Below are positions 1-63,422 of a stretch of DNA of 64,000 nucleotides, piece by piece. Under the pieces are notes generated by a model. That model was not told the origin of the DNA and ran no database searches. It saw only the letters and a list, made by a program, of their open reading frames with translations. The stretch is from assembly GCF_030684185.1 (NCBI RefSeq), contig NZ_JAUXOY010000030.1, positions 62,001 to 126,000 on the forward strand. The letters are read 5' to 3'. The stretch's first letter is position 1. Every line of letters starts with the position of its first letter. A program made the translations under genes and the position numbers. Source of the stretch: Methylotenera sp. (GTDB lineage: Bacteria; Pseudomonadota; Gammaproteobacteria; Burkholderiales; Methylophilaceae).

Positions 1-1
1 A

Positions 2-409
2 CCATCACTCGCCTTTACGCGTATTGCAAGCATTGCTGAACTAGAGAAAAAATTAGCCGAAACTAATGGCCAGCCTGTAATGCTGGACTTTTACGCAGAC
101 TGGTGTGTAGCATGCAAGGAACTTGAAGACTTGACGTTTAGCGACCCGAAAGTTCAGCAGCAACTGCGAAACACAATGCTGCTACAAGTAGATGTCACTG
201 CCAATACTGATGAAGACAAAGCCCTGTTAAAACGCTTTGGCTTATACGGCCCTCCAGGCATTGCTTTTTTTAATGGTCATGGTCAGGAAATGACGACATT
301 AAAAACCGTAGGTTTTCAAAATGCAGACCGCTTTAGCGCTACGCTATCTAAGCGCGATAGCTGCATCGTCGCACCAAAATCAAGCGAAGATTCGACCGTA
401 CAATGTTAA
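2..409 (+). CDS. dsbD: Thiol:disulfide interchange protein DsbD, C-terminal part (cut by window edge)
   Basis: Only the C-terminal, periplasmic thioredoxin-like domain is in the window; the reading frame is open from base 2 with no stop before it, so the gene starts to the left. The redox motif WCVAC is visible after the typical DFYADW strand, and a GPPG cis-proline loop follows, as in the gamma domain of DsbD. In the family this domain takes electrons from the membrane domain and passes them to periplasmic partners that reduce disulfides, including in cytochrome c maturation. It overlaps the next gene by 7 bases (ATG inside its end), so the two thioredoxin-fold proteins are probably translated together. 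Confidence 0.88.
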   Translation, partial: PSLAFTRIASIAELEKKLAETNGQPVMLDFYADWCVACKELEDLTFSDPKVQQQLRNTMLLQVDVTANTDEDKALLKRFGLYGPPGIAFFNGHGQEMTTLKTVGFQNADRFSATLSKRDSCIVAPKSSEDSTVQC

Positions 410-957
410 AAAAAATCCTTTTGAACATTGGCTATCTCGCCATCATGTTAAGCCTTGGTTTTGCCATTTACTATTATTTTTTAAGCCCGAATGCTGCACT
501 TAAGAACCTGAAAACTGATTACAGCACACTTTCTACCCAAGAATTTTTTGCCGCAAAACTGCCCAATGAGCATGGTGTGAGCCAAAGTTTAAGTCAATAT
601 AAGGGTAAAATTATTGTGCTTAATTTTTGGGCTACCTGGTGTCCTCCTTGCCGCGAGGAAATGCCCGAACTTTCTGAGTTACATACAGAATATAAAAATA
701 AAAATGTCGTGGTATTGGGTATGGCGATTGATGAGTTAAGTCTGGTCAAAGAGTTTTCAGATGCCACTCCCGTAAGCTACCCATTACTTGCAGATGAAAA
801 CGAAGGGATGGCGCTTGCCAGCCATCTAGGTAATGATAAAGGTGTGCTGCCATACACTGTTATCATCAATATAGATGGCACTGTGGCTAATGCTTATTTT
901 GGCCGCATCAATAAACCGCTCTTAGCGTCCAGTCTAGATAAATTATTAGCGCATTAA
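403..957 (+). CDS. TlpA/ResA-type membrane-anchored thioredoxin
   Basis: 184 residues. A hydrophobic segment at about residues 5-27 anchors it in the inner membrane with the rest in the periplasm. The thioredoxin fold follows, with WCPPC (Cys80 and Cys83) after a NFWATW strand and a cis-proline region near LPYTVII. This is the AhpC/TSA-Redoxin type seen in TlpA and ResA, which reduce haem-binding cysteines or other periplasmic disulfides. It overlaps the end of dsbD and probably receives electrons from it. Cytochrome c maturation is the likely purpose in an organism with many c-type cytochromes, but the substrate is inferred. Confidence 0.85.
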   Translation: MLKKILLNIGYLAIMLSLGFAIYYYFLSPNAALKNLKTDYSTLSTQEFFAAKLPNEHGVSQSLSQYKGKIIVLNFWATWCPPCREEMPELSELHTEYKNKNVVVLGMAIDELSLVKEFSDATPVSYPLLADENEGMALASHLGNDKGVLPYTVIINIDGTVANAYFGRINKPLLASSLDKLLAH

Positions 958-5587: not shown

Positions 5588-6490
5588 CTAATGAATCAAA
5601 TGCATAAAATCCGAATTAATCGCTTTAATCGCCTCAGCAATTTTTTCTACCGCTTCTAACCTCACAAAGCTTTTACGCCATGCAATCGCGATGCGCCTAG
5701 TGGGTGCTGGACTTATGAACGGGATTACTTTAATGAGCGGATTGTTATACCGCTCTGCTGTAGCCGAACAAGGCAGTACAGTAATACCCAAATTTGATGC
5801 CACCATATTGCGTATAGTTTCTAACGAATTGCCCTGCAATACCTCACCTTTACGAGATAACTCCGGGCAGGCTTGCGTCACTTGGTTACTAAAGCAATGA
5901 CCGCTATTAAGTAACAACACTTTTTCTTCTGATAACTCTTCTGGCCTGATGGATTTTCGTTGCGCCCAGTGATGCTGGCAAGGTACCACTACATCAAACT
6001 CCTCGTCATACAAGGCTCGATATTGTAGGCCTGGCACTTCAAATGGCAGCGCAATAATTGCAACATCTATCACGCCGTTTCGTAGCTGCGCTTCCAAATT
6101 AGCCGTCAGGTTCTCTTCCACCTCTAGGGGCATATCAGGCGCTATTTTTCGCAAAATTGGAATAATCTCTGGCAATAGGTATGGGCCGACAGAATGAATC
6201 ATGCCAAGTTTCAATGTGCCTTTAAGCTGGTTTTTACCAAGCTCTGCTATTTGCTTAATGAGCGAAGTTTCTTCCAACACTTTTGAGGCTTGTTCTACTA
6301 TTTTTGCGCCAATTTCTGTCATGCTGACATCGGTGCGGCTACGTTCAAAAATGATGACTTTCAACTCTTCTTCCAGCTTTTTGATTGCCAAACTTAGTGC
6401 AGGCTGAGAAACAAAACATTTTTCAGCCGCTCGTCTAAAGTTACGCTCTTGCGCTACCGCTACTATAAATTTTAATTCTGTGAGGCTCAT
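5588..6490 (-). CDS. oxyR: Hydrogen peroxide sensor and LysR-type regulator OxyR
   Basis: 300 residues: an N-terminal LysR winged helix-turn-helix (about residues 1-60) and a periplasmic-binding-protein-like regulatory domain. The two peroxide-sensing cysteines fall exactly at Cys199 (NSGHCF) and Cys208 (TQACPE), the E. coli OxyR numbers; they form a disulfide on oxidation in that protein. It is divergent from katG, and the intergenic region holds a candidate OxyR site. It most likely activates katG under peroxide stress and may repress itself. Confidence 0.94.
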   Translation of the reverse strand: MSLTELKFIVAVAQERNFRRAAEKCFVSQPALSLAIKKLEEELKVIIFERSRTDVSMTEIGAKIVEQASKVLEETSLIKQIAELGKNQLKGTLKLGMIHSVGPYLLPEIIPILRKIAPDMPLEVEENLTANLEAQLRNGVIDVAIIALPFEVPGLQYRALYDEEFDVVVPCQHHWAQRKSIRPEELSEEKVLLLNSGHCFSNQVTQACPELSRKGEVLQGNSLETIRNMVASNLGITVLPCSATAERYNNPLIKVIPFISPAPTRRIAIAWRKSFVRLEAVEKIAEAIKAINSDFMHLIH

Positions 6491-6525
6491 ATAAATTAAC
6501 GTTAAATGATTTGCTTAATCATACA

Positions 6526-6546
6526 TTGATAAATTTAATTTATCAA
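6526..6546. promoter_or_regulatory. Candidate OxyR operator between oxyR and katG
   Basis: A perfect 21-bp palindrome with one central base. Its inner 17 bases, GATAAATTTAATTTATC (6528-6544), keep the GATA-x-TT-n-AA-x-TATC framework of the 17-bp OxyR motif known from E. coli. A second half-like TTGATTTATC follows about 27 bases later. The palindrome sits 36 bases upstream of the oxyR start and before the katG leader. Confidence 0.6.
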
Positions 6547-6637
6547 CTACATCAAAACATACAATTATACAAATTGATTTATCCGCTCTAAAATGATCCT
6601 CTGGCATCGAAAATGATGAATACTCAAGGAGTACAAC

Positions 6638-6712
6638 ATGATTAACAAAATGATTGCAACTACCTGCCAAGAGCTGATTGAACTACTGGCTAACTATGCT
6701 GCAAATAACTAA
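6638..6712 (+). CDS. Putative 24-residue micro-ORF upstream of katG
   Basis: ATG at 6638 has an excellent ribosome-binding site (AAGGAG at 6626-6631). The peptide begins MINKMIATT and has one cysteine followed by an amphipathic LIELLANYA stretch. It lies in the katG leader on the same strand. I do not recognise the family; it may be a small stress peptide, a leader peptide, or a chance ORF. The strong site and the position downstream of the candidate OxyR operator favour translation. Confidence 0.45.
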   Translation: MINKMIATTCQELIELLANYAANN

Positions 6713-6830
6713 TGAATCATTAATTAACAAATTTTTATCCACTTTTTAATATTAAAATTTTCTTGATTGAACGATGTGCAATAGACAACAAGTATTGGCC
6801 CTTAACTTCATACTGCAAAAGGAAATAATT

Positions 6831-9069
<2,239 letters not shown>

Positions 9070-9644: not shown

Positions 9645-10898
9645 ATGCGCAATAAATTAAATGTCGCCCTGATTGTTCTGTTGTTATCTCCTATGCTGGT
9701 ATTTGGCGAGGAACTTACGCAACCAGACAATAATCATCTTGATGAATTAAAAGTAAACTCAAATTTGCAATTGCGTGATGTCTTAGAAAAGACCATCGCC
9801 CGTAATCCTATGCAGTCCACGTTGCAGTCGCGAGAATCCGTACTCAATGCTAAAAAAATAATTGCAAATTCTATGTTGCCTGCTGCGCCAGCAATTAGCT
9901 TGGGGCATCAAAATGATGTGCTGGGCAGCGGCCGAGGAGAACGCGAATGGCAAGCAGATTTGGAAGTGCCGGTATGGCTGCCGAATCAGCGTAACAACCG
10001 TTTAAAAGTGGCGGATGCAACGCAATCTAGCGTGAGCGCGAATCGTGAAAGTTTGAAACTACATGTAGCGGGCTTATTACGCGACGCCGTTTGGGATATT
10101 GCCATTAATAACAATAATGTTGCGCTGACTTCAAATAAATTAGCTGTCGCAAGCAAATTACAGCAAGACGTTGAAAAACGCTACCAAGCGGGAGAATCTG
10201 CCAAAACAGATGCCATGCTCGCGCAACAGGAAACATTACGCGCCAAGAAAGAACAACTTCGCGCAGAAGCTGAGTTAATGCATGCACGCCATCGCTATTA
10301 TCTACTCACTGGGTTGCGCGAAATCCCTGCTAACTTTGAAGAGAAGCAATCGGCTTTAGAAGATTACAGTCAGTCGTCTATTTGGGCTGAAGCACAATCT
10401 AAAGTGGGGTTGGCGGAAACCGAGCGTGATTTGGCACAAGTGGAAAGCCATGAAAATTTACAAGTGCTATTCAATATGCGCAGTACAAAAGGCGCTTTCG
10501 ATAATATGTCAAATGAGAGCGTTGGCGTAAAAGTACGTATTCCGTTTGGGGGTGACTCACGTGCAGCGCCTATTAAAGCTGCTGCGGAGCTGGGGGTTGG
10601 TAACGCACTGACCGAGCGGGAAACACTGAGAAATGCTCTGGAAACAATGATGCATGAAGCAGAGCATAATTTAAGTGTGAGCCGAGCAGAGCTTGCTATA
10701 GCGAGTAAACAATATGAAATTGCTAAAGAAAGCGTTACTTTAGCGGAAAAGTCTTTTCAATTAGGCGAATCTGATCTGGTAAGTTTAATGCGTGTGCAAG
10801 CACTAACTTACGAGGCGGAACGTGCCTTTACTACTCGAGAAATTCAATTGCAGTGGGATATCGCCCGCTATAACCAAGCTGTAGGAGCACTTCCATGA
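9645..10898 (+). CDS. Outer-membrane efflux channel (TolC family, CzcC/CusC-like)
   Basis: 417 residues with a Sec signal peptide (cleavage probably after VFGEE or just before) and two long helical repeat regions rich in Ala, Glu and Lys with coiled-coil character, as in TolC-family exit ducts. It is the first gene of a three-component heavy-metal efflux operon; its stop overlaps the ATG of the adaptor gene (ATGA). The metal cannot be told from this protein. Confidence 0.88.
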   Translation: MRNKLNVALIVLLLSPMLVFGEELTQPDNNHLDELKVNSNLQLRDVLEKTIARNPMQSTLQSRESVLNAKKIIANSMLPAAPAISLGHQNDVLGSGRGEREWQADLEVPVWLPNQRNNRLKVADATQSSVSANRESLKLHVAGLLRDAVWDIAINNNNVALTSNKLAVASKLQQDVEKRYQAGESAKTDAMLAQQETLRAKKEQLRAEAELMHARHRYYLLTGLREIPANFEEKQSALEDYSQSSIWAEAQSKVGLAETERDLAQVESHENLQVLFNMRSTKGAFDNMSNESVGVKVRIPFGGDSRAAPIKAAAELGVGNALTERETLRNALETMMHEAEHNLSVSRAELAIASKQYEIAKESVTLAEKSFQLGESDLVSLMRVQALTYEAERAFTTREIQLQWDIARYNQAVGALP

Positions 10899-12010
10899 TT
10901 TATGTTTCATTTAAAGTCGTTTTACCAATCGTCGCCCTTTTTGCTTTCATAGGCAATGCGCGGGCTGCAGATGTGCTGATGACCGATGTAGTAATCACTA
11001 AGGCCCAACAACAAAGTTTAGGCGTTAGCGTAACCACAGTAGGTAAAAATACAGTGCTGAGTAGCCGCCGCTTTCCTGCAGAAATCGTGGTGCCTGTCGG
11101 GCAAGAGCGTGTAGTGAGCGCACCACAGTCTGGCCTGTTAGACCAGCTCTACGTGGCTGCGGGGCAAAGTGTTAAAAAAGGACAATTGATTGCCCATTTA
11201 ATTAGCCCGGATTTATTGAACTTGCAGCGAGATTACCTGCAAGCGCAGACACAAAAAAAACTGGCGGCAAAAAGTTTATCTCGAGATGCCTCGCTATTAA
11301 AAGATGGCATTATTCCGCAGCGCCGTTATTTAGAAACAGAAAGTACGCATGAGGAAACCAGCGCTTCATTAGCTCAGCGTAGGCAAGCTTTGCGCTTGGC
11401 GGGCATGAGTGATGCCGCTATCAGTAAGTTAAGCCCAAGTTCTGGCATGAGCAGTAGCATTAACATCACAGCCCCCATGGATGGTCAAATATTAGAGCAA
11501 ATGGTGACAAGTGGTCAGCGTATTGAAGTGGCGATGCCGCTGTATAGAATAGCCAAATTAAACCCGCTTTGGCTTGAAATTCATGCTCCACTTGAAGGTT
11601 TGCCGTTTGTAAAAGAAGGCATGCCTGTGCAAGTACCTAAATTACAGGCAAGCGGTAAATTGATCGCAGTGATACGTAGTGTGAATAAAGCTGATCAAAC
11701 CTTGCATTTACGTGCAGAAATCACCAACGGTGCTGAAAAACTATCACCAGGGCAGATTGTAGAGGCTGAAATTAGCCTTGGTGGGCAAGTGCAACACTTT
11801 AGCGTACCAAAATCAGCTCTTGCAAGGCAGGGCGCGGAGGCCGTCGTGTTTGTACAAACAAAGGCTGGGTTTAGTCCGCTAAAAGTAAAAGTCATTTCAG
11901 AGCAGGGTGATGAGGCAATAGTGGATGCTAAATTTAATGGCAATGAAAAAATTGCTGTCACAGGCATTGCTGCGATTAAAGGGGCTTGGTTAGGCCTTGG
12001 TTCGGAATAA
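10895..12010 (+). CDS. Periplasmic adaptor (membrane fusion protein) of RND metal efflux
   Basis: 371 residues. An N-terminal signal peptide ends near NARA, then come a barrel-sandwich (lipoyl-like) half motif (SAPQSGLLDQLYVAAGQSVKKGQLIAHL), a helical hairpin, a second half (INITAPMDGQILEQMV) and beta-barrel domains, the CusB/CzcB order. It links the inner-membrane RND pump to the outer-membrane channel. I see no methionine-rich or His-rich metal-binding N-terminal extension, so selectivity is open. It is translationally coupled to the gene before it and 12 bases from the pump gene. Confidence 0.9.
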   Translation: MIYVSFKVVLPIVALFAFIGNARAADVLMTDVVITKAQQQSLGVSVTTVGKNTVLSSRRFPAEIVVPVGQERVVSAPQSGLLDQLYVAAGQSVKKGQLIAHLISPDLLNLQRDYLQAQTQKKLAAKSLSRDASLLKDGIIPQRRYLETESTHEETSASLAQRRQALRLAGMSDAAISKLSPSSGMSSSINITAPMDGQILEQMVTSGQRIEVAMPLYRIAKLNPLWLEIHAPLEGLPFVKEGMPVQVPKLQASGKLIAVIRSVNKADQTLHLRAEITNGAEKLSPGQIVEAEISLGGQVQHFSVPKSALARQGAEAVVFVQTKAGFSPLKVKVISEQGDEAIVDAKFNGNEKIAVTGIAAIKGAWLGLGSE

Positions 12011-12022
12011 GGGTGGCAAATA

Positions 12023-15000
12023 ATGTTAGCTAAACTCATACAATTTGCGCTGACGCAGCGCTTGCTCATGCTGATTCTCACGCTTGGATTGGCAGCGGCT
12101 GGCACTCTGGCTTACCAATCATTACCAATTGACGCCTTCCCTGATGTGTCTTCTACTCAAGTAAAAATCATCATCAAAGCACCTGGCATGACACCAGAGG
12201 AAGTTGAAGCGCGCATTACTGCACCCATTGAAGTTGAAATGCTAGGCATACCTCATCAGGCTGGCCTGCGTGCTGTGGCTAAATATGCGCTGACAGATAT
12301 CACCGTGGATTTTGAAGATGGCACCGATATTTACTGGGCGCGTCAGCAGGTAGCCGAACGCTTGAATGCAGTATGGGGGAACTTGCCCGCTGATATTTCA
12401 GGCGGCATGGCGCCATTAACCACGCCTTTGGGCGAAATGTTCATGTTCACGGTGGAAAACGATACGCTTAGTTTGCAAGAAAAACGTAGCTTACTTGACT
12501 GGGTGATTCGACCACAGTTGCGCACTGTACCAGGCGTTGCCGATGTGAATGCTTTAGGTGGCTTAGTACGCAGTTTTGAAATTGTGCCAGACAATTCACG
12601 CATGTATGCACGAGGCGTGGCGATTGATACATTGCAAAACGTGCTGGAAAATAATAATCGTAACGGTGGCGCTGGCCGGCTAAATGATGGTGAAGGTTCA
12701 TTGTTAGTGCGTGCTGAAGGTGGTTTTAAAACCATAGAAGACGTGCAAAATACCATAGTGCGCAGCGAGCAAGGCATGTCAGTCAAAATTGCTGATATTG
12801 CTGATGTGCGCGTAGGCTCACTTACGCGCTACGGCGCTGTGACCAGTAATGGCAAAGGTGAAGTGGTAGAAGGTTTGGTGCTAGGTTTACGTGGTGCCAA
12901 TGCGCAGAAGTTGGTGGAAGGGGTAAAAGCCAAGCTCGCTGAAATTGCACCCAGCTTGCCAAAAGGTACCAATATTCATGTTTTTTATGACCGAGGTAAT
13001 TTAGTAGAGCGTGCGGTTCATACCGTCACTAAAGCATTATTGGAGGCCGTAGTATTAGTGCTGATATTGCTCGTATTATTTTTGGGTAACTTTAGGGCTG
13101 CGCTGACCATTGCCTTCATACTACCGTTGTCCGCCTTGTTTACCTTTTTACTCATGCGTTATTTTGGCATGTCAGCCAATTTAATGAGTTTGGGAGGCTT
13201 AACTATTGCCATTGGTATGCTGGTTGATGCAGCCGTGGTTGTGGTTGAGAACATAGTTTCGCACCTTGCAGATACGAAAAAAGCAGGCTCTCTGCCCAGA
13301 ATGCATATTATCTACCGTGCCGTGCGCGAAGTCAGCGTTCCCGTTACTGCTGGGGTGTTAATCATTATTACGGTATTTTTACCGCTACTCACCTTGCAGG
13401 GTCTTGAAGGCAAACTGTTCACACCAGTTGCACTCACCATCATGTTCGCACTGGCAGGTTCGCTATTTTTATCACTGACTGTCATCCCTGTGCTGGCTTC
13501 ATTTTTGCTCAAAGAAGTGAGCCATAAAGAACCTTGGTTAGTTAGAAAAGCATTAAGCGTTTACGAACCTATACTCAAATGGTCTTTAGATCATGCCAAA
13601 ATTATCGTGATTGGTGCGTTTGTTCTGCTGGCAATTACCGGCGTTGCTTACACGCAAATTGGTAAAACCTTTATGCCTACCATGGATGAAGGCGACATTA
13701 TTATTGGAGTCGAAAAGCTGCCATCAATCAATCTGCAGCAAAGTTTGCTCACTGATATGAATGTGCAGCGCGCTATTTTAAGCCAGGTGCCTGAAGTGAA
13801 AGGTGTTTTTTCCAGAGTTGGCTCAGATGAACTTGGCTTAGACCCTATGGGTTTAAATCAGACTGATAACTTTTTGATTTTGAAGCCATCAAGTGAATGG
13901 CGCATGAAAACCAAAGAGGAGTTAATCGACGAGCTACGCAAAGTCATGGCGCAAATGCCTGGCTTAGACTACAGCTTCACACAACCAATTGACATGCGTG
14001 TGAACGAAATGATTTTAGGCGTACGCGGTGATTTAGCCATTAAAATATTTGGCCCTGATTTAACCGCACTTGATGCCAAAGCGCAGCAAATCATCCATAT
14101 TTTAGAGTCTATTAAAGGCAGTCAAGACGTTTATACGCCGCAAAATAGCGGTGTTCAATATCTACAAATTAAAATAGACCGTGTCGCGGCTGGCAGACTT
14201 GGGTTAAGCATTGCCGAGATTGAAAACATCTTGCTTGCCCAGCTTGAAGGTAAGCAAATGGGTATTGTACAGGAAGGTCAAAAACGTACACCCGTACTAC
14301 TTCGAGGCAGTGAAGACTTGCGCTCGTCCCCTTCAGACTTTGGTAATTTAATGCTAACGTTAGCTAATGGTACTAACGTTCCACTTTCAGCTGTGGCTAA
14401 AATAGTGCGTGAAGAAGGTCCGGTAAAAGTAGATAGAGAGCGTGGTGTGCGCATGGTTGTAGTTACGGCCAATATCCGTGACCGTGATTTAGTAAGTTTT
14501 GTGGACGAGGTCAAGCAACGCATCAACACCGAGGTAAAACTGGGTGAAGGCTATTCAATTAAATTAGGCGGTCAGTTTGAAAATCAACAACGCGCAGCGG
14601 CACGTTTAGCCATTGTGGTACCTGTGGCTATTGGCTTGATTTTCTTACTGCTATTCGCTACTTTTGGCTCCATTAAACAATCCCTGCTTATTCTTTCCAA
14701 CATCCCGTTCGCTATGATAGGTGGTGTATTTGGTCTATGGATTTCAGGTGAATACCTCTCCGTGCCTGCCTCAGTCGGCTTTATTGCACTGCTGGGTATC
14801 GCTGTACTTAATGGTGTAGTCATGGTCAGCTACTTTAACCTGCTGGAAGCGCAGGGCATGGATAAACTAAGTATCGTGGTTGAAGGCGCAAAACGCCGAT
14901 TAAGACCTGTATTAATGACTGCAAGCATTGCCGCCTTTGGCCTAATTCCACTTTTATTTGCTACGGGACCCGGCTCTGAAATTCAAAAGCCACTGGCGAT

Positions 15001-15082
15001 TGTTGTGATTGGTGGCCTGGTTTCCTCCACCGCGTTAACGCTTGTGTTGCTACCCATATTTTATAGAAGATTTTTTAAGTAG
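12023..15082 (+). CDS. Heavy-metal RND efflux pump, CzcA/CusA family
   Basis: 1019 residues, typical of the HME-RND family: two repeats, each with one plus five membrane helices and a large periplasmic loop. The opening segment SLPIDAFPDVS and DGTDIYWARQQVAERL are hallmark sequences. The fourth-helix motif is SLGGLTIAIGMLVDAAVVVVEN, with charged residues Asp402 and Glu409; it lacks the DFG-type aspartate of CzcA and resembles the CusA pattern more. The pump exports metal cations by proton antiport. The exact metal is unresolved: monovalent copper or silver is suggested by the motif, but the overall sequence also resembles Czc/Cnr pumps. Confidence 0.93.
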   Translation: MLAKLIQFALTQRLLMLILTLGLAAAGTLAYQSLPIDAFPDVSSTQVKIIIKAPGMTPEEVEARITAPIEVEMLGIPHQAGLRAVAKYALTDITVDFEDGTDIYWARQQVAERLNAVWGNLPADISGGMAPLTTPLGEMFMFTVENDTLSLQEKRSLLDWVIRPQLRTVPGVADVNALGGLVRSFEIVPDNSRMYARGVAIDTLQNVLENNNRNGGAGRLNDGEGSLLVRAEGGFKTIEDVQNTIVRSEQGMSVKIADIADVRVGSLTRYGAVTSNGKGEVVEGLVLGLRGANAQKLVEGVKAKLAEIAPSLPKGTNIHVFYDRGNLVERAVHTVTKALLEAVVLVLILLVLFLGNFRAALTIAFILPLSALFTFLLMRYFGMSANLMSLGGLTIAIGMLVDAAVVVVENIVSHLADTKKAGSLPRMHIIYRAVREVSVPVTAGVLIIITVFLPLLTLQGLEGKLFTPVALTIMFALAGSLFLSLTVIPVLASFLLKEVSHKEPWLVRKALSVYEPILKWSLDHAKIIVIGAFVLLAITGVAYTQIGKTFMPTMDEGDIIIGVEKLPSINLQQSLLTDMNVQRAILSQVPEVKGVFSRVGSDELGLDPMGLNQTDNFLILKPSSEWRMKTKEELIDELRKVMAQMPGLDYSFTQPIDMRVNEMILGVRGDLAIKIFGPDLTALDAKAQQIIHILESIKGSQDVYTPQNSGVQYLQIKIDRVAAGRLGLSIAEIENILLAQLEGKQMGIVQEGQKRTPVLLRGSEDLRSSPSDFGNLMLTLANGTNVPLSAVAKIVREEGPVKVDRERGVRMVVVTANIRDRDLVSFVDEVKQRINTEVKLGEGYSIKLGGQFENQQRAAARLAIVVPVAIGLIFLLLFATFGSIKQSLLILSNIPFAMIGGVFGLWISGEYLSVPASVGFIALLGIAVLNGVVMVSYFNLLEAQGMDKLSIVVEGAKRRLRPVLMTASIAAFGLIPLLFATGPGSEIQKPLAIVVIGGLVSSTALTLVLLPIFYRRFFK

Positions 15083-15092
15083 GAGCGACATA

Positions 15093-15407
15093 ATGACGCA
15101 AAATATAGAAGCGCAAGGTCTTTTGATTTTAATTGTGCCGCCAAGCCTAGAAGAAAGCTTGGTAGATGCATTACTGCAACAAGCAGAAATTTCAGGCTTT
15201 ACCAGCAGCAAAGTGAATGGCCACGGCACGGTTCGTGGTGATGCCGCAACACTCAGCATTGTTGAACAAGTGACTGGTAGACAACAACGCGTTCAGTTCA
15301 TGATGCATGCCAATATTGTAGATTTAAAAAATTTAGTAAGTAGCCTTAAATCTACGTTTAGAAGCACTGATATTCATTACATTTTAATGCCAATTTTAGA
15401 GTGTTAA
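15093..15407 (+). CDS. DUF3240 family protein of the metal efflux operon
   Basis: 104 residues from the ATG at 15093, which follows AGGAG; an in-frame extension into the pump gene is possible but has no such site. The sequence resembles DUF3240, a small cytoplasmic family with a PII-like or ferredoxin-like fold found at the 3' end of czc/cus-type operons. The function is unknown; a regulatory or metal-sensing role for the pump is a guess from context. It is the last gene of the operon. Confidence 0.75.
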   Translation: MTQNIEAQGLLILIVPPSLEESLVDALLQQAEISGFTSSKVNGHGTVRGDAATLSIVEQVTGRQQRVQFMMHANIVDLKNLVSSLKSTFRSTDIHYILMPILEC

Positions 15408-15495: not shown

Positions 15496-15638
15496 GAGAC
15501 CTTTGCAAAAGTGTTTATTGCGGCAAATTACTGCGTTGCGCGGTACTCGCAACCTCGCTGTACACCGCGTACTATCTCGGTTTCTGTGTTCCGTGCGCCT
15601 TGTACTTTATCCACACTAAACACTTTTGCAAAGGTCTC
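15496..15638. mobile_element. 143-bp MITE-like element with 22-bp terminal inverted repeats
   Basis: The left end (15496-15517) starts GAGACCTTTGCAAAAGTG and the right end (15617-15638) is its perfect inverted copy over 22 bases. It is flanked on both sides by the 5-base direct repeat TAATT (15491-15495 and 15639-15643), the mark of a target-site duplication. It is too short for a transposase. The ends resemble, from memory, termini of some IS5-family elements (for example Neisseria IS1106); this was not searched. It lies between the convergent metal-efflux operon and the decahaem cytochrome gene. Confidence 0.8.
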
Positions 15639-15698: not shown

Positions 15699-17288
15699 TC
15701 ATTTTTTAGGTAAAGCTCCATCGTGTGCCGCATGAGAGCTATGGAAGCTGTGACAAGTCATGCAACTACTAGCGATACGCTTGGGTTTAGGACTGTTACC
15801 AGAATGACAACGCAAGCAAGATTTTCGATCTGGCATAGCTACATCCTCACTACTTTCTGATGCTTCTACCTGATGACATGATTGGCATTGCTGAGTACGA
15901 TGCGAGGCATGATTGAAGTGAGCTTTTCTAAACCAGTCTTGATTGATGTGCAACGGTGCGACGCGCCAAGGCAAGGCATCCTCTTTTTTAGTTTCTACTA
16001 CTTCATGACAGTACGCGCAGCCACCAACTTTCAGTGATTCGGAATAATGTAACATTTCCTTGGGCGCCTGAACCTTAAGTGTATTAATGACATTCTGCTC
16101 GGCACCATGCGGTACGCTTAATTTAGCTTCGGATGAGCCAACTTCAAGCTGGTTTTTGTGACAATCGAAGCAGTCGCGCTTAAAAGATACCGCTTTAAAA
16201 CGCATTTCTTTACCTTCTGAATGATGGCAATTAGCGCATGACAGCTCACGCACATCCAATATACCGTTTGGCCCTTGCACTTTACCGAAATGCTGATCAT
16301 GCGGGAATTTTAGTCCGGACTTCTCTATCAAGCGTGTTGTTTCGGTTTGTGGAATACGTTCAAAATCTTTTTCTGTGGCACCTGTTATAAATGTCAGTTT
16401 AAAGTCTGGATGGTCATGGTCGAAGTCTTGAATATTTGGTAGTGTCGTTTTAGCATCTGCCGCTTTAATGTTACCGTGACACTTCACACACATAGCATTA
16501 TCTTGACGGGCTAACGGGTACGGCGCTTTATGTTCTCGATGACATTCAGCACAGCGAATGCCATCAGAAAACAGGCTGGTCGATTTAAAAACGTTTTTAT
16601 GCAAAGCAGGATCAGCAATGTGAGGCTCTGTATTCTGATGACAATTTACGCAAGCCTGGTCAGTAACCTTTTGAGTTAACACTTCATGACAATTGAAACA
16701 TTGTGAACCAAAATGTCGATGTGAGTTGGAAATATGCCCCGGGCTCCATACTCTATCGAAGCCAGCAGGTAACTCTGCCATGGCATCATGAAGCTTTGGA
16801 ATCAAATTTTGTGCCAGTGGCAATGCTAAGAACACAAGTGCGATGAACGCGACCATCCAAAGTGATAGCCGCCGTTTAAACGCTGAAGCGCCGCGCAGTG
16901 GTTCGTGTGTTCTTGCTTTAAGATCTTGAAAGTCATCTGGTAAGCGATGCACCAATACCAGAGAAACTGTTATATTGACATCAGGCGGTGCTGGTTCTAC
17001 CTTTAACTGATAAGGCCCTATCATGACCTGCTTGCCGTTTGTTAGCGCAATGTTCTTTAAAATTGCACCTTCCACTTCCAGCTCACCATTTACCGCCATC
17101 AAATGTATCTGGCCGTCATCCAAACGCTTAATGACGGCATGATGCATGGCTAGACGCGGGTCTGGCAGATGTATCGTGCACTCCGCCCCGCGACCAATTG
17201 TAATCTCTTCTGCCGTTAGCGTACGATAACTCCGTGACAGCACACCACGGGAGTTATATGAAACCTTGATTAAAAGACAATTAATCAT
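15699..17288 (-). CDS. FHA-domain, single-span, decahaem cytochrome c
   Basis: 529 residues. An N-terminal forkhead-associated-like domain (about 25-97, with IGRG at 31-34 and HH at 49-50) is followed by one membrane helix (about 141-162) preceded by KRR, which suggests the FHA part is cytoplasmic and the rest periplasmic. Ten CxxCH haem motifs follow, the first at Cys197. The FHA serine that normally contacts phosphothreonine is replaced by Ala47, so binding may be altered. It starts 3 bases after the b-type membrane protein gene and ends the gyrB-linked cluster. It probably accepts electrons from that membrane protein. Terminal partners are unknown. Confidence 0.88.
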   Translation of the reverse strand: MINCLLIKVSYNSRGVLSRSYRTLTAEEITIGRGAECTIHLPDPRLAMHHAVIKRLDDGQIHLMAVNGELEVEGAILKNIALTNGKQVMIGPYQLKVEPAPPDVNITVSLVLVHRLPDDFQDLKARTHEPLRGASAFKRRLSLWMVAFIALVFLALPLAQNLIPKLHDAMAELPAGFDRVWSPGHISNSHRHFGSQCFNCHEVLTQKVTDQACVNCHQNTEPHIADPALHKNVFKSTSLFSDGIRCAECHREHKAPYPLARQDNAMCVKCHGNIKAADAKTTLPNIQDFDHDHPDFKLTFITGATEKDFERIPQTETTRLIEKSGLKFPHDQHFGKVQGPNGILDVRELSCANCHHSEGKEMRFKAVSFKRDCFDCHKNQLEVGSSEAKLSVPHGAEQNVINTLKVQAPKEMLHYSESLKVGGCAYCHEVVETKKEDALPWRVAPLHINQDWFRKAHFNHASHRTQQCQSCHQVEASESSEDVAMPDRKSCLRCHSGNSPKPKRIASSCMTCHSFHSSHAAHDGALPKK

Positions 17289-17291
17289 GAC

Positions 17292-18122
17292 TTACCAATA
17301 AAAAAATACAGCAAGTATGTGTGCCAGCATCGCTACTAACAGTGCGACAGTAAAGGGAACGTGAAAATACAGCCAAAATCCTAGCCTTGCGCGGTACATT
17401 AAATCTTGCCGCACCCGCTTTACTAGCGATTCACGTCGGACCATAATGGAATACAGATCGCGATATAATTTTCGCTGTTCCAGAGACAGATCATTGCCTA
17501 ATACTGTCAGTTGCTGCACTGCCTGTGCTGATGGGCAATCTGCTTGAAAGCCTCTAAGTTGCTCTAATAAACTAATGCCGATATAAGTTTCACGGCACGC
17601 GCGAGCCACTGCGTTATTGATGTCATCTGGCATCAATAACGCAATTTGACGCGCCAACTTATCCGTTTCTGCTATACGCAATAGTAGACCGTCCAAGCTA
17701 TCCTCACCCATGTTTTCGGTCATTAGGCGCGGATAAATCATATAAGCATAATTACCGAAAAAACCACTGGTTACTACAATCAACAAGAGGCCATAAGCGA
17801 GTGTATGAATGTTAATGCCGAAGTGAAATCCACTGTGCAGAGTGACGATAACAGTCATCGCGGTACCAAGGTAAATATGCGCCGATAACCAGCCCTGTGT
17901 AGCGCCACGGCTGCGGTAGCGACGTTTACGCACGCCATACCATGCCATCCATAACACCATAATGGCTGATAATGTGCCTAGGCCATAGCCTAACCAGCTG
18001 CCGCCATAATGACCAACAGCCGGCTCAAATAACAGGTAGGCTGCAAAGGCTATCAAAATGACGATGACGGCCAATTTGAAGTAGCGGTATTTTTTGTAGT
18101 CGAAAATATTGCTGTGCTGCAT
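17292..18122 (-). CDS. Di-haem b-type integral membrane protein (putative)
   Basis: 276 residues from the ATG at 18122, chosen because the longer reading would overlap the upstream gene. Five membrane helices are visible (about residues 14-33, 42-63, 78-98, 104-124 and 248-272), with a long soluble loop between the last two. His82 and His96, and His254 and His268, each lie 14 residues apart on two helices, the spacing expected for two stacked bis-His b haems. This fits a ferric-reductase or cytochrome b-like electron carrier across the membrane. It is 13 bases after the FAD/ferredoxin gene and 3 before the decahaem gene. Haem binding is inferred. Confidence 0.75.
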   Translation of the reverse strand: MQHSNIFDYKKYRYFKLAVIVILIAFAAYLLFEPAVGHYGGSWLGYGLGTLSAIMVLWMAWYGVRKRRYRSRGATQGWLSAHIYLGTAMTVIVTLHSGFHFGINIHTLAYGLLLIVVTSGFFGNYAYMIYPRLMTENMGEDSLDGLLLRIAETDKLARQIALLMPDDINNAVARACRETYIGISLLEQLRGFQADCPSAQAVQQLTVLGNDLSLEQRKLYRDLYSIMVRRESLVKRVRQDLMYRARLGFWLYFHVPFTVALLVAMLAHILAVFFYW

Positions 18123-18135
18123 CGTTTTGCTTCCG

Positions 18136-20592
18136 TTAACTCTCGCCCGAACCCAATAAAGCAGCTTCGCCTGATTTTCCACCAGCGTAACTTAAAAGCT
18201 CTTCCGGGTTCACCCGTAATGCCGCGCCCACGGGGCAGGCACGCACGCAAACCGGGCCATCAATAATATCCTTGCACATGTCACACTTAACCGCTACCTT
18301 GGCGCCATCGACTACTGGCAGTGCTTTTGGCTGAATGCCAAGTAAAATCTGCCAAAGACTACGTTCTGGCTGGTCGTGTATCACTGCCATCTGAATTACG
18401 TCATATGGACAGTTTTGCTGGCAGTTGCCACACCCAATACAACTATCATCAATGTATACTTCACCATGTGGTGCGCGATGAATAGCGTCAGGCGGACAAT
18501 CTTTCATACAGTGTGGATGTTCGCAATGTCGGCAAGAAGTCGGTACTCGAATATTTGCAAAAATGGGGCCCGCATCACGATCTAATCGTGTTGCTCCACC
18601 GTGAGTATTGGCACAGGCCTCTTCACAGTAATTACAGCGCACGCATAGTGATTCATCTATCAGCAATACATCAGTGGCTTCACCTACGCCCTGTTGAATT
18701 AGAAATGAAATCAGATTAGATGGTGTGGACGGACTTCCAGAAGCTCCGCTACTATCGAACATTACCTCCTGTTGCTGACGCTGTTCCTGATCTTGCAAGT
18801 GCTGAAGATATCTACCATCTAACTCACTGCGGATTTCAGGATTTCGCGCAATGATGTCACTCATCCGCCCTGCATCGATTAATACCGCTTCTGTTGCAAT
18901 CGCTGCACGTACCGTCGCATAGCGTGGCTCACCAGAAACTAAAGACATTTCCCCTACATAGTTACCTGCTGCCACATAAAACAGTACAACTTCCCTACCG
19001 CCTATCATGCGTGAAACTGTGACTGAACCACTTTGAATCAGGTAAAGCCCATCAGCCTGATCGCCCTCATGAAATAACTCCTCGCCTGCAACATAGCTCT
19101 TAAGCGTGGCATTATTTGCCAAATCATTTAAATCTTCCTCGCTCAATGATAAGCCGATACATATTTGCACAACCGTCTTAATTGCAACCTCATTAAGCAC
19201 ACGGCGCATAGACGGGACAGAGCCAATAAGCTTTTGCATCACGCGGCGCGGGGTTTCAATCAGAACGCATTGAGTCCTTGCGCGCACAGTTCCAGGGCGG
19301 CGACGGCCAGAAACGAGAGCCATTTCGCCAAAAAAATCCCCTGATTTTAGCGTATCGTCTGCCACATCATCATCATCAATCAGCACATCCAGCTCTCCTT
19401 CAACCACAAAAAAGAAGGTTGTGCTGTAATCGTTACGCTTAAAGATGTAATCTCCCGGCCAAGATAACAAGATATTACTTTCCAGAACCAATTCACGTAG
19501 TTGCAGGGTATTAAGCATTGCCAATAGCGGAACGCTCTTGCGGATTTTTTCTAATACGTCATCAACACCACGATCTGAACAGAAACTGGCAAACTTTTCC
19601 CTAAGCAAAGTTGTATCAGCAGGCTCAACGGGGTTACCCAAAATGTATTCAATGACCTCATAACCCTGATTAATGCCCTGCTTAATTAAGGGATAACCTG
19701 CCAATGACCCTATAATATAAAGACCAGGCACGTTCGATTCATAATGTGAAGAAAGTAGCGGAAGCGCTTCCAAATCAGTTGTTGGAAAGCTAACACCGAA
19801 ACCCTCCAATACAGGCCGTGGTGGCAGTGCACCTAACCGTGCAATCACCCGATGACAAGGAATACGTTCGATGCCGTTGGGTGTGTTGGCAAACACCGTA
19901 ATTGGATACTCTCCTTTGGCATTCGTCTCTATGGATTGCGGCCTTGTTTCTAATAACCAGTCCAGTGCGCCCTTTTTTCTGGCATCAGTCAATTGACTAA
20001 GATTACTATCCTTACAATTACTAAAGTCCTCTGCTCGGTTAAGGATGATAACCTGATTGCGTTCAGTCAGTGCCAATGCATTTTCCACGCCGCTATCTCC
20101 ACCGCCGATGACAACGATAGTTTCATCTTGATAAGCTTGTGGATCGTCTAGTTGGTATTGGATTTGAGGAAGGTCACCGCCAGGAATATCAAGCTTGCGC
20201 AAATTGCCTTGCACACCAATTGCCAAAACCACATGCTCTGCCGTTAGTTTTTCACCATCTGCCAGCGCAATTTCAAGCCATTTTTTGCCGCGCTTTAAAC
20301 TAACCACCTTGGATTCGTAACGTACATTAACATTGCTATCGGCAATGGTTTTTTCCCAGTTTTCAAGTACGGTTTCACGCAACGAAGCTGTAAAAGGTAG
20401 CGGGCTACGAATTGGCAAGCCCCTCGGCTCTGACATGACTAACTTGCCACGCTGATAATTTCGAATAGTGCTGGCTGGTGCTTGTTCTGCTTCTAGTAGC
20501 AGATAAGAAACATTTTGCTGCGCCGCACGTAAGGCTGCCGACAGCCCACTAGGGCCTGCACCGATAATAATAATATTGAAATGTTCAGACAA
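18136..20592 (-). CDS. FAD/NAD(P) oxidoreductase fused to two cNMP-binding domains and a 4x[4Fe-4S] ferredoxin
   Basis: 818 residues. The order is: FAD site GAGPSG (11-16); NAD(P) site GGGDSG (163-168); first cyclic-nucleotide-binding domain (about 350-460, FGEMALV at 421-427); second one (about 475-595, VGEMSLVSGEPRYATVRA at 546-563); and a ferredoxin domain with four groups of four cysteines (650-660, 687-699, 718-728, 770-786). The flavin part resembles thioredoxin reductase but has no CxxC pair. It should move electrons from NAD(P)H to Fe-S centres and on to the membrane protein. The start is TTG, the first possible start after the gyrB stop, in the same frame. Real substrates are unknown. 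Confidence 0.87.
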   Translation of the reverse strand: MSEHFNIIIIGAGPSGLSAALRAAQQNVSYLLLEAEQAPASTIRNYQRGKLVMSEPRGLPIRSPLPFTASLRETVLENWEKTIADSNVNVRYESKVVSLKRGKKWLEIALADGEKLTAEHVVLAIGVQGNLRKLDIPGGDLPQIQYQLDDPQAYQDETIVVIGGGDSGVENALALTERNQVIILNRAEDFSNCKDSNLSQLTDARKKGALDWLLETRPQSIETNAKGEYPITVFANTPNGIERIPCHRVIARLGALPPRPVLEGFGVSFPTTDLEALPLLSSHYESNVPGLYIIGSLAGYPLIKQGINQGYEVIEYILGNPVEPADTTLLREKFASFCSDRGVDDVLEKIRKSVPLLAMLNTLQLRELVLESNILLSWPGDYIFKRNDYSTTFFFVVEGELDVLIDDDDVADDTLKSGDFFGEMALVSGRRRPGTVRARTQCVLIETPRRVMQKLIGSVPSMRRVLNEVAIKTVVQICIGLSLSEEDLNDLANNATLKSYVAGEELFHEGDQADGLYLIQSGSVTVSRMIGGREVVLFYVAAGNYVGEMSLVSGEPRYATVRAAIATEAVLIDAGRMSDIIARNPEIRSELDGRYLQHLQDQEQRQQQEVMFDSSGASGSPSTPSNLISFLIQQGVGEATDVLLIDESLCVRCNYCEEACANTHGGATRLDRDAGPIFANIRVPTSCRHCEHPHCMKDCPPDAIHRAPHGEVYIDDSCIGCGNCQQNCPYDVIQMAVIHDQPERSLWQILLGIQPKALPVVDGAKVAVKCDMCKDIIDGPVCVRACPVGAALRVNPEELLSYAGGKSGEAALLGSGES

Positions 20593-20595
20593 ATA

Positions 20596-23073
<2,478 letters not shown>

Positions 23074-23092: not shown

Positions 23093-24193
23093 CTATATAC
23101 GCATTGGCATGACTACATATTTATAATCTGTATTATTAGGCACTGTAATTAAACAACTACTATTTGCATCTGCAAAAGAGAAAGTCGCTTGTTCGCTATT
23201 AGTATTATTGAGTACATCAATCAGATAAGTAACATTAAAACCAATATCCAAGTTATCGCCGCTGTAGATTACTTCTAACTCTTCCTCAGCTTCTTCCTGG
23301 TCACTATTTGTGCTGATTAATTTCAAATTATTATTACTTAATACCATGCGAATTCCACGATATTTTTCATTTGATAAAATTGACGCGCGCTGCATTGCTA
23401 GTAACACGCCTACTCTATCAGTAGTAAATGAATTTTGATGTCCTGTAGGGATTACACGATTGTAATCAGGAAATTTACCATCAATGACTTTAGATATCAG
23501 TTTAAAATTATTAAAACTAAAATTAACCTGATTACTCGCTAATTCTATTTGCACATCTTCTTCACTATCATCTAATAATTTAATTAGTTCAATCACAGTT
23601 TTACGGGGCAAGATAACATCTTGTTTTTCATAGTTTTGTTTTAATTCTGTAGAAGTAAAACTTAAACGATGTCCATCAGTACCAACAATATTTAAACGAT
23701 TGGCTGTTACTTCAAATAATAAACCGTTTAAATAATAACGAATATCCTGTTGCGCCATTGCGAATTCAACTTGCTTTAACAAGTCTTTTAATTGACGCTG
23801 ACCTATCGTAACCAAGGTGCTTTCACCTTGAGTTTTCGTCATTACAGGATAATCTGCAGCTGGTAATGTTTGTAAGTTAAATCGGCTTTTTCCGGCTTTT
23901 AAGGTAATGCGGCTATCATTGGTAGCCATATTAATTTCCGAACTATCAGGTAGCGATCTGCAGATATCCAGTAATTTTTTTGCTGAAATAGTAGTAGAGA
24001 AATCACCAGTGGCAGCGCTTTCTATTGATAACGATATTTGCATCTCTAAATCTGTTGCTGTGAGATGAATCTTATTTTGCTTCGCTTCTAATAACAAATT
24101 AGAAAGTATAGGTAATGTATGTCTTTTTTCTACAATACTTGTCACTGATGTTAATGGCTTTAACAAAGTTTCACGGTTGATTTGTATATTCAT
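23093..24193 (-). CDS. dnaN: DNA polymerase III sliding clamp, beta subunit
   Basis: 366 residues, the usual size, built of three clamp domains, with the C-terminal VMPMRI sequence typical of bacterial beta clamps. The protein encircles DNA and tethers polymerase III. It sits between dnaA and gyrB on the same strand. An AT-rich segment with DnaA-box-like sites separates it from dnaA. Confidence 0.97.
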   Translation of the reverse strand: MNIQINRETLLKPLTSVTSIVEKRHTLPILSNLLLEAKQNKIHLTATDLEMQISLSIESAATGDFSTTISAKKLLDICRSLPDSSEINMATNDSRITLKAGKSRFNLQTLPAADYPVMTKTQGESTLVTIGQRQLKDLLKQVEFAMAQQDIRYYLNGLLFEVTANRLNIVGTDGHRLSFTSTELKQNYEKQDVILPRKTVIELIKLLDDSEEDVQIELASNQVNFSFNNFKLISKVIDGKFPDYNRVIPTGHQNSFTTDRVGVLLAMQRASILSNEKYRGIRMVLSNNNLKLISTNSDQEEAEEELEVIYSGDNLDIGFNVTYLIDVLNNTNSEQATFSFADANSSCLITVPNNTDYKYVVMPMRI

Positions 24194-61622: not shown

Positions 61623-63422
61623 ATGAAACGCAATGTATCTAATGTAAAAGTTAGTGCTGCAATCGGCGGTTTGTTCATGCTTGCGGCAGCAGGAGCTGCT
61701 TTTGCAGATGCAGACTTAGATAAACGTGTGAAAGATCCAAATCAGTGGGCTACACAAACTGGTGGCTACGACAGCCAGCATAATAGCCAATTATCACAAA
61801 TTAACAAAGGCAATGTAAAAAATCTAAAAGCAGCCTGGTCATTCTCTACAGGTGTATTGCACGGTCATGAAGGCGCACCATTGGTGATTGGCGACATGAT
61901 GTACATTCACTCTGCATTTCCTAACAATACTTATGCGGTGAACTTGAATGACCCTAACAAAATTGTTTGGTCGCATAAACCTAAACAAGATGCTTCAACC
62001 AAAGCGGTGATGTGTTGCGATATTGTTGACCGCGGTGTGGCTTATGGTGCTGGTCAAATTATCAAAAAACAAGCCGATGGTCATTTGCTTGCGTTAGATG
62101 CTAAGTCAGGAAAAGTAAACTGGAAAGTGGAAATGTGCGATCCAAAGGTTGGCTCGACACTCACACAAGCCCCTTATGTGGTTAAAGATACGGTGCTTAT
62201 TGGTTGTTCTGGTGCTGAGCTAGGTGTTCGTGGTGCAGTCAATGCCGTTGATTTAAAAACAGGTGCGTTGAAATGGCGTGCTTATGCCACAGGTCCTGAC
62301 GAAGATATTCGTTTGAAAAAAGACTTTAACTCTGCAAACCCACATTATGGTCAATTTGGTTTAGGTACTAAAACTTGGGAAGGCGACGCTTGGAAAATCG
62401 GCGGCGGCACTAACTGGGGTTGGTATGCTTATGATCCAAAATTAAACTTGTTCTACTACGGTTCTGGCAACCCAGCACCATGGAACGAAACCATGCGCCC
62501 AGGCGACAACAAATGGACTATGACTATTTGGGGTCGTGATGTTGATACAGGCGAAGCTAAATGGGGTTACCAAAAAACACCACATGACGAGTGGGATTTT
62601 GCTGGTGTAAACCAAATGATGCTGACTGACCAACCAGTCAACGGCAAAATGACACCATTGCTGACTCACCTTGACCGTAACGGCATTATGTACACACTTA
62701 ATCGTGACACAGGTGCATTAATATTAGCGGATAAAGTGGACCCAGCAGTCAACGTGTTCAAAAAAGTGGATTTAAAAACGGGCTTGCCAGTACGTGATCC
62801 AGAATTTAACACACGTATGGACCACAAAGGTACTAACATTTGTCCATCAGCGATGGGCTTCCATAACCAAGGGGTTGACTCTTATGACCCTGAATCTCGT
62901 ACATTGTATGCTGGCTTAAACCACATCTGTATGGATTGGGAGCCGTTCATGTTGCCATACAAAGCAGGTCAATTCTTCGTAGGTGCAACACTTGCGATGT
63001 ATCCTGGCCCAAGTGGACCAACCAAAACTGAAATGGGTACAATTCGGGCATTTGACGTTGTAACAGGTAAAGTTAAATGGTCTAAATGGGAGAAATTTGC
63101 TGCTTGGGGTGGTACTTTATACACCAAAGGTGGTTTAGTTTGGTATGCAACATTGGATGGTCAACTAAAAGCATTAGATAACGCCAACGGTAAAGAGTTG
63201 TGGAAATTCAAAATGCCTTCAGGCGGTATCGGGTCTCCAATGACATACGCTTTCAAAGGCAAACAATACGTTGGTAGCATGTTTGGCGTAGGTGGCTGGC
63301 CTGGTGTTGGTCTAGTGTTCGACTTGACTGACCCAAGTGCTGGTTTGGGTGCGGTAGGTGCATTTAAAGAACTTCAACACTACACCAATATGGGTGGCGG
63401 TTTGATGGTATTTAGCCTGTAA
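61623..63422 (+). CDS. mxaF: Methanol dehydrogenase large subunit MxaF (calcium type, PQQ enzyme)
   Basis: 599 residues, strongly similar from memory to MxaF of Methylophilus methylotrophus. A signal peptide ends near AFA (residue 28); the mature enzyme is an eight-bladed propeller. Vicinal Cys131-Cys132 (VMCCD), Glu199, Asn283 and catalytic Asp325 are visible. Residue 327 is Ala (DFA), not the Asp that marks lanthanide-dependent XoxF, so this is the calcium form. It oxidises methanol to formaldehyde in the periplasm. GGGAG precedes the ATG. mxaJ follows after 216 bases, and the kinase pair is divergent. Confidence 0.96.

Follow-up and report, generated by a model that had tools for sequence, protein, structure and literature searches.

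Within a 64,000-nucleotide stretch of a Methylotenera sp. genome (contig NZ_JAUXOY010000030.1, positions 62,001 to 126,000; the whole stretch is called the window below), we studied three genes that together encode a candidate path for electrons from the cytoplasm to the periplasm. They follow dnaA, dnaN and gyrB on the minus strand, and we named them, in order, RdxA, MemB and CytC. The genome comprises 2.72 Mb in 30 contigs; its closest named relatives are Methylotenera metagenome genomes, and the RdxA of one of them (L007) is 92% identical to that of the window. A preliminary description, made from the sequence alone, had reported three tightly packed genes, and both spacings proved exact and the placement correct: 13 bases separate RdxA from MemB and 3 bases separate MemB from CytC. 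Likewise, 3 bases lie between the gyrB stop (20596) and the RdxA start. All features are listed in Table 1.

Table 1. Features of the RdxA-MemB-CytC locus; positions refer to the window unless residues are given
Feature	Position	Strand	Remarks
RdxA	18136-20592	-	TTG start
RdxA, FAD/NAD(P) flavoprotein domain, TrxR/YpdA-like	residues ~1-330		Pfam/NCBIfam; Pyr_redox_3 1.1e-28
RdxA, two tandem cyclic nucleotide-binding domains	residues ~345-600		PF00027, two stretches, 1.5e-38
RdxA, four [4Fe-4S] cysteine sets	residues 650-786		Fer4 domains
MemB	17292-18122	-	ATG start; longest open reading frame begins at 18182
MemB, protein			276-residue membrane protein, candidate dihaem cytochrome b; W78-X3-H82-X13-H96, S119-G-X-X-G123, W250-X3-H254-X13-H268
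CytC	15699-17288	-	FHA domain, one transmembrane helix, decahaem cytochrome c
CytC, FHA domain, predicted cytoplasmic	residues ~29-91		PF00498, 3.1e-6
CytC, single transmembrane helix	residues ~140-162		K/R-rich stretch in front
CytC, decahaem cytochrome c, predicted periplasmic			10 CXXCH and 10 further invariant or nearly invariant His; c3/c7-type haem domains
gyrB	20596-23013	-	directly upstream of RdxA; neighbour in this genome, outside the system
dnaN	23093-24193	-
dnaA	24454-25860	-
Inverted-repeat element	15496-15638		143 bp; inverted 28-nucleotide ends (GAGACCTTTGCAAAAGTG...), 93% complementary; just 3' of CytC, before the next gene

Domains and conserved residues of the three proteins

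Our set of related loci consists of the best 80 of 116. With the window included, the alignments comprised 76 rows for RdxA, 77 for MemB and 69 for CytC, shorter sequences having been dropped by length. RdxA had been described as a flavin adenine dinucleotide (FAD)/NAD(P) oxidoreductase with four [4Fe-4S] cysteine sets. We found both parts, and all 16 cysteines are kept in 76 of 76 rows; a match to PF13247 reached 38.1 bits (cut-off 26.2). The TTG start aligns with the ATG of three relatives (L007, L014 and L023), and the whole protein is therefore kept. Relatives of RdxA in the Protein Data Bank (PDB) include the ferredoxin-NADP reductase 3ab1. Indeed, the N-terminal domain belongs to the same fold family as the TrxR-fold ferredoxin-NADP reductases and the bacillithiol reductase YpdA/Bdr. 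In contrast to these enzymes, however, the domain is fused in RdxA to cyclic nucleotide-binding and [4Fe-4S] domains, and the YpdA score stayed at 114.2 bits against a cut-off of 339.9. Because residues 1 to 340 of the window protein contain no CxxC, the redox motif of the pyridine-nucleotide domain of ordinary thioredoxin reductases (TrxR), RdxA could be ruled out as such an enzyme. The AlphaFold2 (AF2) model of RdxA was of moderate quality (pLDDT 75.0), its Fe-S part being too weak for reading distances.

The preliminary description did not include the two cyclic nucleotide-binding (CNB) domains that lie in tandem between the flavin and the Fe-S parts of RdxA. In CNB domains, a pocket Glu and a pocket Arg contact the nucleotide. 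Both are found in both copies (GE-X8-R; E423/R432 and E548/R557) in 76 of 76 rows, and the A/G and T residues that follow are mostly kept as well. The best solved-structure relatives of these domains include the regulatory domains of protein kinases A and G.

MemB had been noticed for two His pairs at 14-residue spacing, the conservation of which had been left to check. The pairs are H82/H96 and H254/H268, and all four residues are invariant (77/77 rows). The remaining motif residues are kept in 76 (W78 and S119) or all 77 rows (G120, G123 and W250). MemB relatives span 33 to 89% identity, and conservation over such a range would speak against a chance occurrence of the ligand motifs. In Pfam, only a sub-threshold match to b561 was obtained. 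No match of the window MemB to Ferric_reduct (PF01794) was found at E ≤ 1, and 6 of 35 members matched this family weakly (best E value, 0.0029). The AF2 model of MemB was good (pLDDT 87.7). As for topology, six K/R residues are present in loop 64-77, 17 K/R and 16 D/E in loop 128-247, and no K/R in the loops between TM1 and TM2 and between TM3 and TM4 (TM, transmembrane helix). These charge counts suggest that the first two loops lie inside and the last two outside; this would place H82/H254 on the cytoplasmic and H96/H268 on the periplasmic side, as ligands of two stacked haems.

CytC is, as had been proposed, a decahaem cytochrome with one anchoring helix; all 10 CXXCH motifs are present and are kept in relatives. 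The K/R-rich stretch in front of the helix suggests that the FHA domain lies inside and the haems outside. Ten further histidines (H190, H223, H253, H293, H330, H333, H394, H460, H463 and H516) were invariant in an alignment of 27 rows and, in the larger alignment, are kept in between 63 (H516) and 69 of 69 rows. Their count equals the number that would be required for ten bis-His haems. Some Gallionella proteins carry nine CXXCH motifs and one CX4CH replacing the tenth. The FHA domain, like the CNB domains, was absent from the preliminary description. Its Pfam family was matched by 22 of the 27 members at E ≤ 0.01, and the GR motif (G32 and R33) is present in 69 of 69 rows. These regulatory domains, CNB and FHA, are the most informative and the more novel part of the system.

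Linkage of the three genes and their place behind gyrB

Where 1 kb or more of downstream sequence was available (77 related loci), MemB directly follows RdxA in 74; where 2.6 kb or more was available (71 loci), MemB and CytC both follow it in 68. An automatic adjacency rule (E ≤ 1e-20, within 400 bp) alone gave 71/77 and 65/71; L044, L069 and L072, where an open reading frame adjoins RdxA, were restored. As for the exceptions, the contig also carries MemB in L041 and L050, the distance to their 10-haem gene being about 6 kb, while in L071 MemB lies elsewhere in the genome. As a less biased test, we also analyzed a phylum sample of 397 genomes, own genome included (cut-offs of E ≤ 1e-100 for RdxA and E ≤ 5.5e-74 for a strong MemB match). 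RdxA was present in 17 genomes and a strong MemB match in 18, namely those 17 and G039. The co-occurrence that had been put forward for checking was thus borne out: every RdxA genome has MemB, and the three genes are adjacent at one locus in 16 of the 16 RdxA genomes other than our own. Gene order is kept across proteobacteria. At genus level, RdxA was found in 30 of 37 genomes, own included; G007 and G028 gave a partial match only, and several of the seven genomes without it are incomplete. Near some loci (L007, L225 and L250) there are genes for the maturation of cytochrome c.

A link to the dnaA-dnaN-gyrB operon had been considered striking. The adjacency is real here, but it is unique to this genome: gyrB was upstream of RdxA in none of the 72 related loci for which 600 bp of upstream sequence was available. 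Furthermore, 27 of 31 other genomes with RdxA also gave a gyrB match, and in all 27, four of which are single contigs (three of the genus, one of the order), the two genes are on different contigs or far apart. In L007, the closest relative, a tRNA-Arg gene precedes RdxA at a distance of about 80 bp. A functional coupling of the redox genes with the replication operon, which the three bases between gyrB and RdxA might suggest, is refuted by these counts as a conserved link, and we consider it highly improbable; what is possibly left of it is a local transcriptional effect. The adjacency is a local rearrangement, which may put the operon under gyrB transcription in this genome.

Several other genes of the window were read from its sequence. 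An OxyR-like regulator and a KatG-like catalase-peroxidase (5588-9069) lie a few kilobases from the operon, and an RND-type heavy-metal efflux set of three genes adjoins it together with the DUF3240/P-II-like gene (15042-15407) that comes after the set (9645-15407 in all). The 143-bp inverted-repeat element resembles what we take to be a miniature transposable element or a small mobile-element remnant. A pyrroloquinoline quinone-type methanol dehydrogenase-like gene (61623-63422) fits a methylotroph.

Outer-membrane and signalling genes beside the operon in relatives

Neighbour genes were clustered over the 80 loci, 31 of which belong to the Methylotenera group and 49 (L038 to L086) lie outside it. 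At those 49 loci we found genes for a secreted HbpS-like protein (26 loci), a putative outer-membrane barrel of roughly 600 residues (25 loci), a 10-CXXCH protein with LVIVD repeats that partly resembles ExtM and has about 1250 residues where complete (21 loci) and a 4-haem c554-like protein (13 loci). The barrel-like protein falls into no Pfam family and gave one weak NCBIfam porin match far under the cut-off; we regard it as a putative porin. At least one HbpS-like, barrel-like or 10-haem gene was present at 29 of the 49 loci and none within more than 6.5 kb at 11, the other 9 being too short. The same three kinds of gene were found at none of the 31 Methylotenera-group loci, 22 of which have more than 6.5 kb of flank. 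In the phylum sample, outer-set genes were seen at 8 of 16 three-gene loci. The 10-haem protein was encoded in 11 of 22 genomes tested and in 0 of the 7 Methylophilaceae or Gallionella ones. The window gave no match to 94 outer-half reference proteins from relatives, barrel-like proteins included. CXXCH sites number 393 in our genome, against 115 for the reversed pattern.

In a midpoint-rooted tree built from 55 RdxA rows, 16 rows, mainly from Gallionellales and Methylophilaceae, form a supported group (100/99). Outer genes are absent from 13 of these and 3 are too short, while L041 and L050, which have outer genes, branch just outside. The Methylotenera/Gallionella clade shows the inner half only. 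The tree is consistent with a single loss of the linked outer half, the alternative being a gain elsewhere. A role in extracellular electron transfer, raised as an inference in the preliminary description, is plausible for those relatives that have barrel-like and multihaem genes nearby; for this genome, with no outer half found in the window, it would be conjectural.

Some loci deserve separate mention. At L069 (13029-18364) and similar loci, the HbpS-like, barrel-like and 10-haem LVIVD genes form a recurrent set resembling an outer-membrane cytochrome system. At L078 (10397-18355), L081 and L082, other genes on the opposite strand, for a protein of up to 839 residues and a 5-CXXCH protein, occupy the usual place of the outer set. 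L078 is labelled Mesoflavibacter, yet it groups with Legionellales rows in the tree, and its label or bin may be wrong.

Signalling genes were met at ten loci of the phylum sample (L184 to L193), nine from family f70 and one from family f69. In all nine f70 loci, a calcineurin-like phosphoesterase gene lies on the same strand 66 to 295 bp after the CytC match; in the f69 locus it is 4.9 kb away. We call these loci sphingomonad-type because the phosphoesterase is up to 65% identical to a protein of Sphingobium herbicidovorans. Plasmid pMSHV of that species carries, in a row, genes for a cyclic nucleotide-binding protein, a MemB relative, a CytC relative and the phosphoesterase; genes for multihaem, barrel-size, heme-binding and cytochrome c family proteins are found in the vicinity.

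The presence of two kinds of regulatory domain, together with one PF00211 cyclase match and two protein-kinase family matches in our own genome, could also be taken to mean that the trio is a sensor rather than a bulk conduit, using the FHA and CNB domains to inform a signalling network about the redox state of NAD(P)H relative to the periplasm. However, ten conserved c haems, as well as outer-set neighbours at 29 of the 40 sufficiently long loci outside Methylotenera, are more in keeping with flux than with sensing, and no output domain was seen in the proteins; a sensor is therefore improbable, and we retain a conduit as the preferred reading.

Weak MemB matches (1e-12 to 1e-8) led to a more distant branch. 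Twelve loci were fetched, G039 among them; several of the rest have cytochromes with 7 to 24 CXXCH motifs beside the MemB-like gene, and others have different surroundings. Two of the twelve, L226 and L234, encode a CNB-4x[4Fe-4S] protein with the same four cysteine sets and one GE-X8-R, a MemB-like protein having the four His and the SGXXG of MemB, and a 10-CXXCH protein. The four His and the SGXXG are conserved in four MemB relatives at only 18 to 24% identity. In L226, a separate reductase with NAD_binding_1 and Fer2 domains is encoded nearby, and L234 has a homologue of 39% identity. This NAD(P)-binding/2Fe-2S reductase is unrelated to the TrxR-like domain fused in RdxA, and the input module thus appears to be NAD(P)-linked in both branches, though from unrelated folds. 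Among our comparative findings, this module swap, seen at two loci of twelve, points most strongly to NAD(P)H as the cytoplasmic partner.

A candidate NAD(P)H-to-periplasm conduit and its known counterparts

We propose that the three proteins probably function as one inner-membrane complex, an electron conduit from NAD(P)H to the periplasm that is regulated by a cyclic nucleotide. Within the assembled complex, NAD(P)H would be oxidised at the FAD of RdxA on the cytoplasmic face, and the electrons would pass singly through the four [4Fe-4S] clusters to MemB. Two stacked bis-His b haems, bound by H82-H254 toward the cytoplasm and by H96-H268 toward the periplasm, would then lead them across the membrane, before the decahaem domain of CytC takes them and spreads them in the periplasm. 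In relatives, CytC would hand them on to an outer-membrane barrel-cytochrome partner. The tandem CNB domains would most likely gate the transfer upon binding cyclic AMP or a similar nucleotide, and the FHA domain may dock the complex to, or sense, a cytoplasmic partner. The invariant CNB pocket residues, the phosphodiesterase-like gene next to CytC in sphingomonad-type loci and the PF00211 cyclase of our own genome speak for such signalling. The joint path put forward in the preliminary description, from NAD(P)H over Fe-S clusters and b haems to c haems, fits the observed co-occurrence, domains, conserved ligands and gene order; its direction, physical complex and acceptor, like haem pairing, gating and ligand, we infer.

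Somewhat more tentatively, a second messenger could gate the transmembrane wire directly, the cyclic nucleotide switching electron export to the periplasm, and in relatives toward the outside, by binding within the NAD(P)H dehydrogenase to a tandem domain like that of protein-kinase regulatory subunits. This idea would bring together the phosphodiesterase-like gene of some operons, the FHA domain as a docking arm and the retention of the inner half in Methylotenera and Gallionella.

Several observations weigh against these proposals. PDB searches with MemB (Foldseek and VIA-align) returned helical-bundle matches only, and no clear match to a cytochrome b fold was found. In our own genome, a search for the 10-haem cytochrome that relatives encode gave no match, and no acceptor was identified. 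As for linkage, L183, a second RdxA copy in one sampled genome, lacks both partners, and G039 is a real counterexample, harboring MemB, CytC and an HbpS-like gene (L225) while RdxA was not found at E ≤ 1e-100. The phosphoesterase resembles the cyclic-nucleotide phosphodiesterases SpdA (132.6 bits, cut-off 400) and CpdA (78 bits, cut-off 225) below the equivalog cut-offs, and at E ≤ 1e-5 a phosphodiesterase-like gene is absent from the 80 related loci and 7 other sampled loci. With no match at those loci and all nine adjacent cases in f70, its association is family-level, not universal. Finally, a conserved FHA Ser belongs to the phosphothreonine site. In CytC this residue is Ser in only 15 of 69 rows and Ala in 29, and canonical phosphothreonine reading is doubtful for that reason.

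The proposed conduit shares features with several known systems. Proteins with the ferric reductase/NADPH oxidase transmembrane domain (FRD/NOX) have stacked b haems and draw on cytosolic NAD(P)H and FAD, and MemB has their two HX13H pairs. In contrast to them, however, an Fe-S relay and a c-haem chain are added here, the flavoprotein is of the TrxR type, and the Ferric_reduct family of Pfam is matched only weakly. Inner-membrane cytochromes of the CbcL/CymA type in metal reducers take electrons from menaquinol and deliver them to periplasmic multihaem cytochromes, whereas the present genes specify a cytoplasmic module for NAD(P)H.

The closest likeness in the literature is with the putative porin-cytochrome systems PCC3 and PCC4. 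As given in the main text of He et al. (2017, PMC5566968), their inner-membrane proteins have five helices, two WX3HX13H motifs and SGXXG. MemB shows the same motifs, which suggest kinship. Multihaem cytochromes are common to both, and in PCC4 subgroup II a PF13247-type Fe-S gene stands upstream of the inner-membrane protein, as RdxA does here. In contrast to PCC3/PCC4, the Fe-S protein also bears the NAD(P)/FAD domain and the cytochrome bears FHA. The words "cyclic", "forkhead" and "thioredoxin" are absent from that main text, though its supplements may name these domains. PCC4 has three periplasmic cytochromes (4, 5 and 10 haems) as described there, whereas the present locus has one with 10; L234, with proteins of 5, 3 and 10 CXXCH, recalls PCC4, although no porin was identified at that locus, where none was sought. 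Nor did we meet a porin gene in the cluster as in PCC4, the 94 references compared with the window coming from relatives and PCC4 porins not being among them. Porin-less clusters in the same text likewise combine a multihaem cytochrome with a five-helix protein having two HX13H motifs, often with another redox gene; their proteins are mostly shorter, however, and not clearly homologous to those of PCC3/PCC4. A part in extracellular transfer was judged less probable for such clusters, and the Methylotenera case, without a linked outer half, agrees with this. For some Methylotenera, Cyc2 and putative PCC genes are reported in a 2019 opinion paper (PMC6344600).

In the model of He et al. (PMC5566968) for PCC3/PCC4, an extracellular donor supplies electrons to the quinone pool. 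By analogy, and in view of the Gallionella relatives that carry the operon, a periplasmic or extracellular donor, e.g., Fe(II) or a reduced cytochrome, could feed CytC and MemB, with the quinone pool or NAD(P)+ as the recipient. Such an inward flow seems unlikely to us. Toward NAD(P)H it would run uphill, and the three genes have no energy-coupling site; a quinone-only role would in turn be incomplete with a flavoprotein/CNB/Fe-S module beside MemB. Moreover, many hosts, such as SAR116, Colwellia and Lysobacter, are to our knowledge not iron oxidisers. The outward conduit from NAD(P)H is thus the reading we favor.

How electrons leave the cytoplasm for periplasmic or extracellular acceptors, and how this exit is controlled, is open for most bacteria. 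The system described here is a variant of the PCC-type kind, itself putative, set apart by its NAD(P)H and regulatory domains; the inner-membrane protein of PCC3/PCC4 had, in the main text of the 2017 paper, been assumed to work with quinones. It is present in the cultured Sphingobium herbicidovorans MH (B6S01_RS18455 to RS18440) and Methylotenera oryzisoli La3113 and therefore open to genetic and biochemical testing. Most notable is that second-messenger domains occur regularly in the part of this putative transmembrane electron conduit that faces the cytoplasm. Overall, our data suggest that one branch of these systems regularly comes with an input module for NAD(P)H and a switch operated by a second messenger.

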